A stretch of 64,000 bases of DNA from Meghimatium bilineatum. Taxonomy: Eukaryota > Mollusca > Gastropoda > Stylommatophora > Philomycidae. The position numbers and the translations under genes were made by a program. The notes under the pieces were generated by a model. It was not told the origin of the DNA and searched no databases. It worked only from the letters and a program-made list of their open reading frames with translations. This document shows positions 35,901 through 41,900 of the stretch, piece by piece (positions within the stretch are counted from its first letter, which is position 1; each line of letters begins with the position of its first letter). The stretch covers positions 49,829,832 through 49,893,831 of the forward strand of contig CM067298.1 in assembly GCA_034231615.1 (NCBI GenBank). Direction: 5' to 3'.

Positions 35901-38900
35901 CTTTTGCAAGTATTAGTTCACCTCTTGATTTTAATAATTTTTTTCCTCTTTTGTTTTGAGAAGATTTCGAGTCTTGCTTTGATCCGTGACATATATATTT
36001 ATGTGTTCAAGATACGTGGGTCTTCTTGATATTTGTACTGCATGTCCACTTTCTGAAATCTCATACCATCTGATATGGTCTGATATTTAGAGCCAGGAAC
36101 ATATTATATAGATGACGCAAAGATGGAATTTGTAGGAGATAGAGATGTGTCAGAAAATGTGATTGAAAGTTGTACAGAGACTGTGATGTGTTTGGAGGGG
36201 GGACAACATTGAAATAAATACAATTTCTGATGAGAACACCAATACTGATAACAAAAAGAAGCTAAAGAAGAAAGTAGCACCGACTTACAGAAACACTAAA
36301 TACATAGGTACATAAAAAAGTAACACAATCACTTATGAAATGTGGAAGAGTGTAACGTAAAACTTGAGTAGGTAGTTACATAAGACAGTAACAACAATTT
36401 ACAGAAACAAATGAAAAATAATATGATTAATGTAAAACGATTTTATTAATTACAATTACCAATAATCAAGCATTTTTTATCACATTTCACACCATCAAGA
36501 TGCAATATAATTATTAAGGACACAAAGCACAAGTTTAAAAGGTGAATTATCTTGGCACTTTCTTAATATCAGAAGGTAGATACTCAAATGAGATAAAGTG
36601 TTGAACAGCACAAAACTAATCAACATTACCAAAAATGTGAATCATTTTGTGCATTACAACACTATCAATGAGAATTGGATTGTTGAGATTTTATATCGAA
36701 CCAATTCATTTTCATGTATGTGAAGCATATAGACAAAAAATTCAACCATAGGTTTACAGAGATGTGGTTTCTGAGAAGAATGCTGAAAATACCATGGACA
36801 GCTAAGAAATTTAATGCAGCGTTTCTCATTGATGCTGGGATACATCACTTCAATCTCATCAAAATTTAGGGGCAGACAGTCAAGATTTCTAGGGCATGTG
36901 CTAAGAATAACACAGCTATATCACTTAATAACCACTGGAAATAACAAGGGCAGAAGAAACAGAGGATGACTAGATAGACTTGTATTATGGCACAGCATAA
37001 ATTCACCAAACGAGCTTATAAACAGTACAAGGCAGAGAGTCGTGGAGAAACATAGACGCCTATGTCATTTGACATGGCACTTTATTTATTAAATAATAAT
37101 TGAATTCATAAATTAACAAATTAACAATATTCGCATCCACATATTACAATAGTGAATATGCAGGCACTAAGAACAGTAATAATTTCACATGACATATGTA
37201 TGGTATTGTGAGTACAAACTCACTGCTAGAGAAATGAAAAATGAATGATAACCTATCAATCCATCAGGATTTATATATCAATATAATATTCAATATTATT
37301 TTCATCATCGTTGTCATGCAAGATGAATATCGATCTCAACATACAGGACAGTTATTTTGTCATCTAGATAGTCTTAGATAACAGTATATTGACCCGATCC
37401 ATTCATTTAATCACACTTCATCTTAATATGCAGCAAAATTATTACAAACAGAAAATATGCACATGATTTTCATTTCCTTCTTGCATTTCTCAACAATTAT
37501 CTCATTTGTATTATAAAAGTGTAATTTTTTTGTTATTGATACTCGGACAATTATGATTCAATTTAGTCCAGCAGAGGAATATTTAAAGAAAACATATTTT
37601 AAATTTATTTAAACAAGTATAATCAATAAAAAATTTCGTCATCAAATACAAACACACACAATTCACAGGAGTTTACAGAAAATTGTGCATGAAATGTCAG
37701 TAAATCATTTGCTGGGTACATCATTGATATTTCTGCATAAATGAAAATGATCGATGAAACCCATATTTTCATTATTCATTTCATAAAATGTATTTATCTT
37801 TAAATAATGGAGTAGTTGCACTAATAGCGGGATGAACTTGTATTAACTGTGTACTAATTATAAATTATAATTCCTCCATTTCATTTCTGATTGCCCAAGC
37901 TGTTTTTTTCTATTATTGATATCATTGAGTGCACGGCTTCTCCCCCTTGTTCCTTAAACAAACCTAAACCAAAACCATTTGTAATGATCCAATTACTGCA
38001 GTGGCACTCGAGTATATGATGTTTAGGAATTACAATTCTAGGAAAATGAATGTATATTTTCATGTATTTTTGTATTGCTGTTTCAATTTCTTCCATTTTG
38101 TCAATATGAATTGGTCTACTGTGTGATATTAAATTATGAACACTCTCAAATGCTTCATTTAATGAATTGAAAATCTCTTAGTGGTTAGTAGAATATATAT
38201 GATATCTTGATTGTTTGTGTAGATTTTTGTACGTGTGATGATGGTATCTGTGAGATCTTTATATACCTTACATGTGAGATATTTATGGCAGTGATTCCCA
38301 ACAAAAACTCTCCTATGAAACTTATGCGGCTCTAAGGTGTGTTCTTTCAATACTGCATCTAAATGTAAACATACTGGACCAGACCTTGCAAACAGCTATA
38401 AAAACTATAATCTTAATAAACAATCTTCTGCTTTTATAATTTTATTGTCTAAATAGATTTTCTCATCCGCATTGTCAAGACTATATATGTAAGGAATTTA
38501 TTTCTACATTTAATGTGTCTGCCTGTTGCCAATTTGCACCATATTGTTTCAAAGTATGTGCTATATGGGAGCTTTCTTGTTCTGTTTGTATGTTTTCCAT
38601 TATTTGTGTATCTATTCTGTCAGCTGCTTCCTCTAGTTTATAGATGGTTTTTCTTGATAATGCCTAATAAAATGTGTAGATAAAGAGGAGCAACTTTATC
38701 AATTTCAATATTTAAAATTGGAGCAATTATAATACAAAGAGGCATGTTTCATATCACCATTACAATATCTAATGAATTTATCGTGACATTCTTGCATTAA
38801 TGAAAGACATCTGGTTTTTTTACTTTCACACGGTACATGCATGTCTGAATATGATTGAAGGCACCATAGACATGGATATGTTCCCCTTCTCCCTGAAAAA

Positions 38901-41900
38901 CCATAAACCTTTATTAAGAAATCATAATCACCAAAAAAAGAAAACTACAACTTTCTTACACTCCCATTCTAAATGTGTTAGTGCTTCTATTCTAGCTTTC
39001 ATGTGATACAATAATGTATGTGCATTGTTGTATGTGTCTTTGGTTTTTACACAAATGTATGTGCATTGTTGTATATGTCTTTGATTTTTACACTAATGTA
39101 TGTGCATTGTTATATGTGCCTTTGATTTTTACACTCATGTATGTGCATTGTTGTATGTGCCTTTGATTTTTACACTAATGTATGTGCATTGTTGTATGTG
39201 TCTTTGATTTTTACACTAATGTATGTGCATTGTTGTATGTGCCTTTGATTTTTACACTAATGTATGTGCATTGTTGTATGTGTCTTTGATTTTTACACTA
39301 ATGTATGTGCATTGTTGTATGTGCCTTTGATTTTTACACTAATGAATGTGCATTGTTGTATGTGGCTTTTGATTTTTGCTATTGCTATTAGGATTGTATT
39401 ATGTTTTGAGTTAGGCTTTGCTAGGTTTGCAATCTGCATTGTCATTTTGAAACTTCCTTTGCCATGATCACCACTTACTTTAACCCAAATATGATTCTCT
39501 AGATTGTATCCATTATGCCAAGTCAACAAACCTTCCCTACTATAATCAAACAGAAGAGCACTAACAAATAAATCTAAATTATTAATGTACCAGTAAGCCA
39601 ATGGTGCCTTCTTTGTCAGTCCCTTATCACTCTCAAATTCTTTCATTTCAACCTTCACCCAGTCTCTTGTAATTTCTTTTGCACATTTCCTTTGTGATCT
39701 TTCACATGGCATCTCAACACCATATTGTTTGAGAAAAGATATATATTTTCTTTCTTGTCTCCAGGAAAGTCCTAGTGATTCTTTCAATGAGAAAGCTGAT
39801 TTTGTGGGTATTTTAAATTGGCAGATTTCTTTATGTTAACAAGATATTTTTTTGGTAGTCTTTCAGTGCATATGCCTGCTGAACTTCTAAGGACTCAGTG
39901 GATGTGCCTGATATGCGTTCTCTAACTGCTTGAATACGCATGGTTTGCGTCTGTGGGTCTCACCAATGACTCATTAGACAAACCACCCATGCAACAGAAA
40001 AACCTAAGTAGATGACATGCCGTTATATTGAGGTTATCTATTATAGAAGCTTCATGGCATGTCATCCACACAATTATGCATCTCATACTTTTAATCTGTT
40101 GTTACAATGTATTTTATGCCATGCTGCTTTTTTTTTATTTGTTTATGTATGCACCCTCTGTGGTTGGGAGAGAGGCAGAGATTTGCTGCTCAGCAGTGGG
40201 GAGGAGGTAACGGACAACACTGTTTTCCTATGGCTGAGGCCCATCATAGAGACACACTGACTCAGGACGTGACAATCCTTTTGACTTGAACATTTGGTTG
40301 CATGCCTGGTGTTCGACATAACCAGTAGTTAATTGGAAGCGGGGAATGAACACAGTGAACCCTATCTTGGCTACAGTGGCTAGGAGCAATGCATAGGTTG
40401 AAACCTACCTTCCTGGAGGTGTGATAGTTGTTCTCTGGTTCTGTCCCGGGGTGGGCAGAAAATTCACAGATTTCCCAGCAATATAATGCCATCTAATGGC
40501 ATTAGGTCAAATGGCATGAGCCTATGGACCGCTAATCAGCAACCAACCAACCAACCAACCAACTGCTTGAATACATTTTTATCTCATTCTTCTCATTGGA
40601 GATTTTATTTCGTGTGATTCTTTCCTGTGATTTATAATTTTATGTAATGTAATACGAGTTTGACCAGCAGTTTTGCAAGTAATTATGTTTTTAATGTGTG
40701 CTGTGTTCAATTTTCTCTTAACAAAATTTGTAAACAGCTTTTCTTCAACTAAAGAAAGTGGTAGTGTAAGTGACTTAAAATGCATATTATTAAGTTTGTT
40801 GATGTTTTGCATTGGGGATGTTGATGTACTTGTCAAGTTTGCATATGAACTTACTATGTTTAAATGTTGTTCATCCTACATAACAACCTCATCTTGTAAG
40901 GAAATGTTAGATTGATTGGGATGCTTTGAGAGATCACAAATGTCCGCATTCATTTCATTTGTGGGCCTAGTACTCAAATGTTTCATGCTACCAAGACATT
41001 TCACTGAATAATGCAAACGACAATCATTAATACAAACATCAGGATTAAAATCACACCAAACATTTCTAGATCTATCTCCAATTTGTTGTGTTATCTTTAG
41101 TGATTACTCTGAATGTGTGGTATTAATGTGTTGAATTTTATATAAACATTTAATGCACATACTTATAGAATATTTATGGGACATATCATTATTCACATTC
41201 ATACCAAAAATAAAGAAAATATCATTAACATATTGTGTACAAAGGACTGGTTTCTTATGGTTATATTTTTGTTTTTTGGTTACTAATTTTTCTCCACATG
41301 TCCTACATAAATCTTGAATGTTTGCAATGTGTTTCTCCAAAGTGTGTGCCATCAGCATGTATTTTGTTATGGGTGAAGGCAATAATTCTTGGAATTTAAA
41401 TCAAGCAGTACTTTCACACTAACTGCAGGAAATGAGTATTACAGAAGATGAACCTGCAATAGAAACAAATGAATCATTTATTAGTACTAGACTACATATA
41501 TTTTTCACTTGTTATGATGTCAGTGGTGTTTCTTTCAATCCCCATAGGGTCTACTCTATAAATGATTTGAAAAGCCACTTCATTTTTATGATGTAGAATA
41601 ATTCCTCCAGAAATGTGTATCTAGAAGATTTACTCTCAACAGCATGCAACATTTTGAGAAGCACTCCACTGAGATGTAATACATTCTATAGTGTATTCTG
41701 CATTCCATATTTTCAAAATATGCAAAATGTGAATCACCAGCTTCAATTATTCTACTAAGCATCCTTCTATTGTCACAGATCTCCACAGCATGAAATATGT
41801 TTGGATGTGATAGATGTGGTAGTTGGGACAGCCAAGTTCACAATTATCACCTTCCAATTACCTTTTCCAATTAAAAATACTTAACTGTGATGTTTAATAT

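Follow-up and report, generated by a model that had tools for sequence, protein, structure and literature searches.

The 64,000-nucleotide stretch of the Meghimatium bilineatum genome analysed here (contig CM067298.1 of assembly GCA_034231615.1, forward-strand positions 49,829,832 to 49,893,831; hereafter the window) carries on its minus strand the remains of a transposon in which a zinc module resembling the N-terminus of RAG1 precedes the broken coding sequence of a DDE transposase. These remains almost certainly belong to the Chapaev superfamily of cut-and-paste DNA transposons, and not to Chapaev3; the copy is dead but fairly young, and its intact ancestor encoded one transposase of ∼870 amino acids. 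A preliminary description had read the interval 37878–41390 as a decayed transposon joining these two parts; this interval does hold the motifs, but is only part of an element that extends from 34659 to 43146. The peptides quoted are all present and in order, with CRTCG and ...CIKC in a minus-strand open stretch at 41104–41400, followed by GDHGKGSFK, GDYDFL...CLWC and KEQGGEAVH (segments in Table 1). Since the DUF1280 match of the GDHGKGSFK segment (44.1 bits) is above the curated Pfam cut-off of 25, these peptides exceed chance. The coding pieces are interrupted by stops, frameshifts, a 623-bp insert and a 41-bp minisatellite, and the decay proposed is borne out.

The element boundaries were established by comparison with other copies. 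Searching the genome (1.61 Gb in 32 contigs) with the region gave at least 154 matching pieces, with 40 candidates scored, and the 5′ 506 bases gave at least 42; 20 loci (L009–L028) were fetched for comparison. Copy-to-copy similarity begins at about window position 43146 and ends at about 34660. The window copy starts with CACGCTG-T(n), finishes with A(n)-CACCATG and is flanked on both sides by CTCA; it interrupts another dispersed repeat, one half of which lies on each side. Copies of this repeat at L013, L014 and L028 are uninterrupted and contain a single CTCA, and these paralogous empty sites fix both the element boundaries and the 4-bp duplication. The termini of L022 and L029 (CACTGTG...CACAGTG) are of the 5′-CAC...GTG-3′ type known for Chapaev. 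Matching 4-bp duplications (CTCA, TAGA, AGCT and AGAG) were observed in four of the eight loci having both ends, within the 3- to 4-bp range of Chapaev, and demonstrate a 4-bp stagger. The interrupted repeat is ∼280–290 bp long (...CTGCGTTCGTTCTCAAACTCCTGCAG...) and occupies window positions 34401–34658 and the flank above 43147; its other copies run to position 7736 in L013, 1616 in L014 and 7372 in L028, those in L014 and L028 lying within or bordering other Chapaev copies.

Majority translations of the copies, joined by hand, give an 873-amino-acid reading. This reading matches 15 proteins in a set of 5.8 billion, only two of which have a named organism (Elysia marginata, a sea slug, and Lineus longissimus, a ribbon worm), and the full-length environmental protein P0002 (889 amino acids) aligns with it over 100% at 39% identity. 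A second search, by profile, gave 11 matches among the best 7996 candidates, seven of them new, including the full-length proteins P0018 and P0019 and proteins of the sea slugs Plakobranchus ocellatus and Elysia chlorotica. In a ten-row alignment (A6) of the joined reading with nine proteins, selected from the 24 found because they span the core, both Asp, the C-x2-C, the Leu-His, the His-x4-His and the Glu are invariant (D430, D500, C519/C522, L588-H589, H811/H816 and E833 in P0002), which is the DDE arrangement with C(2)C, LH and H(4)H motifs found in Chapaev. The order Asp, Asp plus CxxC, Glu had been likened to that of the RAG1 core, and the predicted fold of the DDE core of a relative is indeed RAG1/Transib-like, at a core identity to RAG1 of ∼15%. 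Three sea slug proteins publicly labelled ‘amine oxidase’ (P0004, P0020 and P0023) match the transposase profile, with DUF1280 present in P0004 and P0020; the labels seem to stem from misannotation or from gene models that have been fused.

Ten zinc modules, from nine proteins and the joined reading (alignment A5), have in common the H-x4-H, the C-R-x-C, a Ser before C-x2-C and the last C-x2-C; in the window, a short deletion has damaged the third C-x2-C pair, which reads C-R-V-C in other copies. Against all PDB sequences at E ≤ 10, the A5 profile has five distinct matches, three of which are RAG1 (1.6e-5, 0.0076 and 0.0076) and two are ZAD domains, M1BP (1.0) and Grauzone (0.25). A nine-row profile matched the three RAG1 sequences only (2.1e-5, 0.0078 and 0.0078). 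The Pfam family RAG1_imp_bd is matched by six of the ten A5 members at E ≤ 10 (best 9.3e-5), and hhalign scores A5 against a mouse RAG1 fragment at 44.2, compared with 17.8 for the best of 200 plain shuffles and 24.8 for the best of 200 keeping Cys and His. Full-length profiles match the RAG1 N-terminus weakly (E 0.043 and 0.022), and the zinc module alone is needed. Together these comparisons show the resemblance to the RAG1 N-terminus to be homology at the profile level, although the window module by itself would not reveal it, and the significant match expected by the preliminary description was obtained. A search for stand-alone Chapa proteins found two short environmental sequences, P0016 and P0017, whose contigs of 657 and 539 bases are too short to tell.

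The Chapaev DNA transposons of the CMC/CMCT clade were reportedly described by Kapitonov and Jurka in 2007 (cited in PMC4411706 and PMC4079192). DUF1280 represents putative Chapaev transposases and has been placed with RAG1 in clade II (Majorek et al. 2014, PMC3985635). The Chapa domain is a truncated form of the RAG1 N-terminus that belongs to the transposases of Chapaev, Chapaev3 and TransibSU, and its joining to the catalytic core has been proposed to date from the ancestor that these three share (Kapitonov and Koonin 2015, PMC4411706). Chapaev elements have CAC/GTG termini, 3–4-bp duplications and C(2)C, LH and H(4)H motifs (PMC4079192, 2014). Since C(2)C and H(3-4)H occur more widely, Chapaev is distinguished by DUF1280 together with the ends, the 4-bp duplication and the Chapa module. 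All the Chapaev features tested were found, the Chapa module by profiles with displayed single-member scores below the Pfam cut-off, and the element is therefore filed as Chapaev: like these elements it combines a Chapa module and a DUF1280 DDE transposase with C(2)C, LH and H(4)H motifs, CAC-type termini and 4-bp duplications. It differs from two Chapaev subgroups in which a RING finger follows the Chapa module (PMC4411706); hmmscan of the joined reading and ten relatives gave no RING match. Set beside published descriptions, the present family was not matched to a named one. It has long 5′ and 3′ non-coding parts, and several of its copies carry a 41-bp minisatellite at the same place within the coding sequence. 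The copy number of this minisatellite differs between Chapaev copies, and 41 is not a multiple of 3.

Several observations weigh against this assignment. The 3′ terminus of the window copy is degenerate (CACCATG, not CACAGTG), four of the eight loci with both ends (L020, L025, L027 and L011) have no matching 4-bp duplication, and the ends in these eight loci were set at CA(C) by visual inspection. The assignment is based on features compared with published descriptions. Of these, the motifs C(2)C and H(3-4)H also occur across the wider CMCT clade and in RAG1 and are thus not specific to Chapaev (PMC12730594). P0013, which is outside A6, has Asn at the first Asp in a 16-row alignment. For the zinc module, the displayed RAG1 scores (11.6–22.6 bits) are below the Pfam cut-off of 23.3, and a single-sequence PDB search with the window module alone gave no match; in another single-sequence PDB search the sole matches were fluorescent proteins, none with an E below 0.49.

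A RAG1-like N-terminal module together with a RAG1-like core fold would also be expected of a RAG-like transposon (TransibSU, ProtoRAG or TransibVDJ), which would be directly related to the RAG transposon that has RAG1L and RAG2L. This reading is largely refuted and in our judgement very improbable. No match to the Pfam RAG1 core (PF12940) was found at E ≤ 1 when eight pieces from the window, ten relatives and the joined reading were scanned with hmmscan; DUF1280 is above its cut-off; the core is only ∼15% identical to that of vertebrate RAG1 and RAG-like transposons; and the duplications are 4 bp and not the 5 bp of Transib and RAG (PMC8355894). Neither a RING match nor a RAG2-like frame was found: the majority consensus of the 3′ part has no frame of at least 100 amino acids, and six of its eight frames of at least 60, when scanned, gave no Kelch match. 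Genome searches with PF12940 and PF07776 (ZAD) gave nothing, but neither did those of control genomes, and absence is not implied. Canonical Transib elements such as HzTransib differ in lacking the Chapa module present here (PMC4411706). Nor is the element likely to be Chapaev3, for which we see hardly any room: Chapaev3 also has a Chapa domain (PMC4411706), but it makes a TWA 3-bp duplication (PMC4079192), and here CTCA, TAGA, AGCT and AGAG were observed. That the zinc and DDE segments are two unrelated adjoining repeats, as the insert separating them in the window copy might suggest, is scarcely credible and was rejected, since both are colinear on the same strand in 17 of the 20 loci and lie within one protein in the full-length relatives P0002, P0018 and P0019.

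The Chapaev family is thus one repeat family in which, as the preliminary description had supposed, the zinc and GDHG/GEQGGE segments belong together. The three loci in which the zinc and the first-Asp segment were not found together are L010, L024 and L026; the segments found are colinear on one strand in all 20 loci, and all four key segments are present in seven. In-frame stops occur inside the transposase-matching stretches of all 21 copies examined (the 20 loci and the window). Kimura distances to the majority sequence are low, with a mean of 0.034 in the 5′ region (0.018–0.062, n = 21) and means of 0.050 and 0.045 in two other regions, where L024 is the single outlier at 0.313; the family is therefore not very old. 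One internal deletion (window 38526 to 36986), which removes the Glu end, is common to eight of the 20 loci (L016, L017, L019, L020, L021, L022, L025 and L027). Three of these, L016, L017 and L022, bear target-site duplications and therefore moved as non-autonomous elements. L009 (G000:C1:49782200-49791200), ∼80 kb from the window copy, is a segmental duplicate including the flanks (∼95% identity) and the only fetched locus with the 623-bp insert in the same place; it is thus not independent of the window copy.

A more extreme derivative is L037 (G000:C14:10840900-10846900), a giant fold-back palindrome with at least 4537 bp self-complementary at 99.7%; similar matches to the 5′ part only are found on several further chromosomes. 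L037 derives from a related Chapaev (∼81–83% identity to the window in the 5′ part and 70% in a 3′ part) and has a Chapa-coding stretch in each arm and no match to the DDE part, indicating that elements with only a RAG1-N-like part can arise as Chapaev derivatives. N-RAG-TP of the sea slug Aplysia is described as entirely RAG1-N-like sequence (PMC8355894). By this description, it may be the same sort of Chapaev derivative as L037; several of the few named relatives found here are likewise from sea slugs (Elysia and Plakobranchus).

Table 1. Features of the element in the window (window coordinates)
Feature	Position	Strand	Basis or remark
Whole element, assigned to Chapaev	34659–43146	−	5′ end CACGCTG at 43146, 3′ end ...CACCATG at 34659; copy alignments and paralogous empty sites
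5′-side target-site duplication CTCA	43147–43150	−	Flank comparison, empty sites
3′-side target-site duplication CTCA	34655–34658	−	Flank comparison, empty sites
Chapa (RAG1-N-terminus-like) zinc module: H-x4-H and first two C-x2-C pairs	41104–41358	−	Translation and profiles
Zinc module continuation: W, third C-x2-C place, then linker	40876–41103	−	Translation and copy comparison
Linker and start of conserved pre-catalytic region	40579–40875	−	Translation, alignment
Secondary 623-bp insert, short interspersed nuclear element-like by eye	39938–40560	−	Splits coding region; 14-bp repeat of target
DUF1280 segment with first catalytic Asp (GDHGKG)	39293–39835	−	Pfam E 2.5e-11; Asp aligned
41-bp minisatellite, 9 copies	39007–39377		In the coding sequence; the two Asp lie on either side
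Second Asp (GDYDFL) and C(2)C (CLWC)	38705–38944	−	Translation, alignment
Broken transposase middle	38159–38720	−	LH motif LYLHILLG (∼38650–38690); SGPVC...GNHCHKY (38159–38395)
H(4)H motif (HILECH) and catalytic Glu	37881–38177	−	KEQGGEAVH here; GEQGGE in majority of copies
3′ part without open frame of ≥100 amino acids, either strand	34659–37880	−	Majority consensus of copies

The window is rich in transposable elements, with frames for a long interspersed nuclear element-like reverse transcriptase/endonuclease and one for a mariner-like transposase, identified by visual inspection only, at 4111–6589, 22164–22937, 56442–59367 and 47795–48298. Rfam gave no match to the window at gathering cut-offs.

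ZAD is a dimerisation domain of insect C2H2 transcription factors. We raise tentatively, at somewhat short of even chances, that the zinc module of Chapa and the RAG1 N-terminus represents a branch within the ZAD fold, such that the start of the RAG1 non-core region would be a transposase pairing module shared with insect C2H2 factors. The two share a C-x2-C ... C-x2-C layout, and all five PDB matches of the ten-row Chapa profile are RAG1 or ZAD. Four of the ten Chapa modules match Pfam zf-AD at E ≤ 10, the lowest E being 2.2e-5; mouse RAG1 has zf-AD as its strongest non-self match (0.0028), and the top fold matches of a poor model of the window module are ZADs. However, the displayed zf-AD scores (15.8–23.6 bits), which do not include that of the best A5 member, are all below the cut-off of 28, the PDB search with the nine-row profile gave no ZAD, Cys/His-preserving shuffles reached the ZAD scores in 1/120 and 3/120 cases, direct RAG1–ZAD alignment is negligible, and the match does not extend as far as the third C-x2-C pair. 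The RAG1 N-terminal chain 21wb is absent from the fold matches of the window module, a weak model that says nothing either way. Our literature search found no paper on a Chapa/ZAD link.

In the intact Chapaev element, the RAG1/Transib-type DDE core would have bound and cut the CAC-type ends before joining them to the target with the 4-bp stagger, as judged from the chemistry of the family. The zinc module would most likely have aided pairing of the enzyme or the holding of protein or DNA partners, a suggestion less well supported than cut-and-paste by the core. Non-autonomous derivatives also spread, presumably in trans. The window copy inserted into the dispersed repeat and was then broken by stops, frameshifts, another insert and minisatellite expansion.

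The earlier interpretation is thus partly supported. The combination of a RAG1-N-like zinc module with a RAG1-like core is real at this locus, but had previously been described for Chapaev, so that finding both RAG1-like ends in one locus is not new in its general form (PMC4411706). Our results lend further support to the idea, already in print, that the zinc module of the RAG1 N-terminus and a DDE transposase were united as early as in Chapaev elements, so that a late fusion with some separate N-terminal element need not be assumed. They add a lineage with full-length environmental relatives and sea slug matches, and a profile that reaches the solved structure of the RAG1 N-terminus. If the module is truly ZAD-like, this would predict a pairing role for the N-terminus of RAG1.

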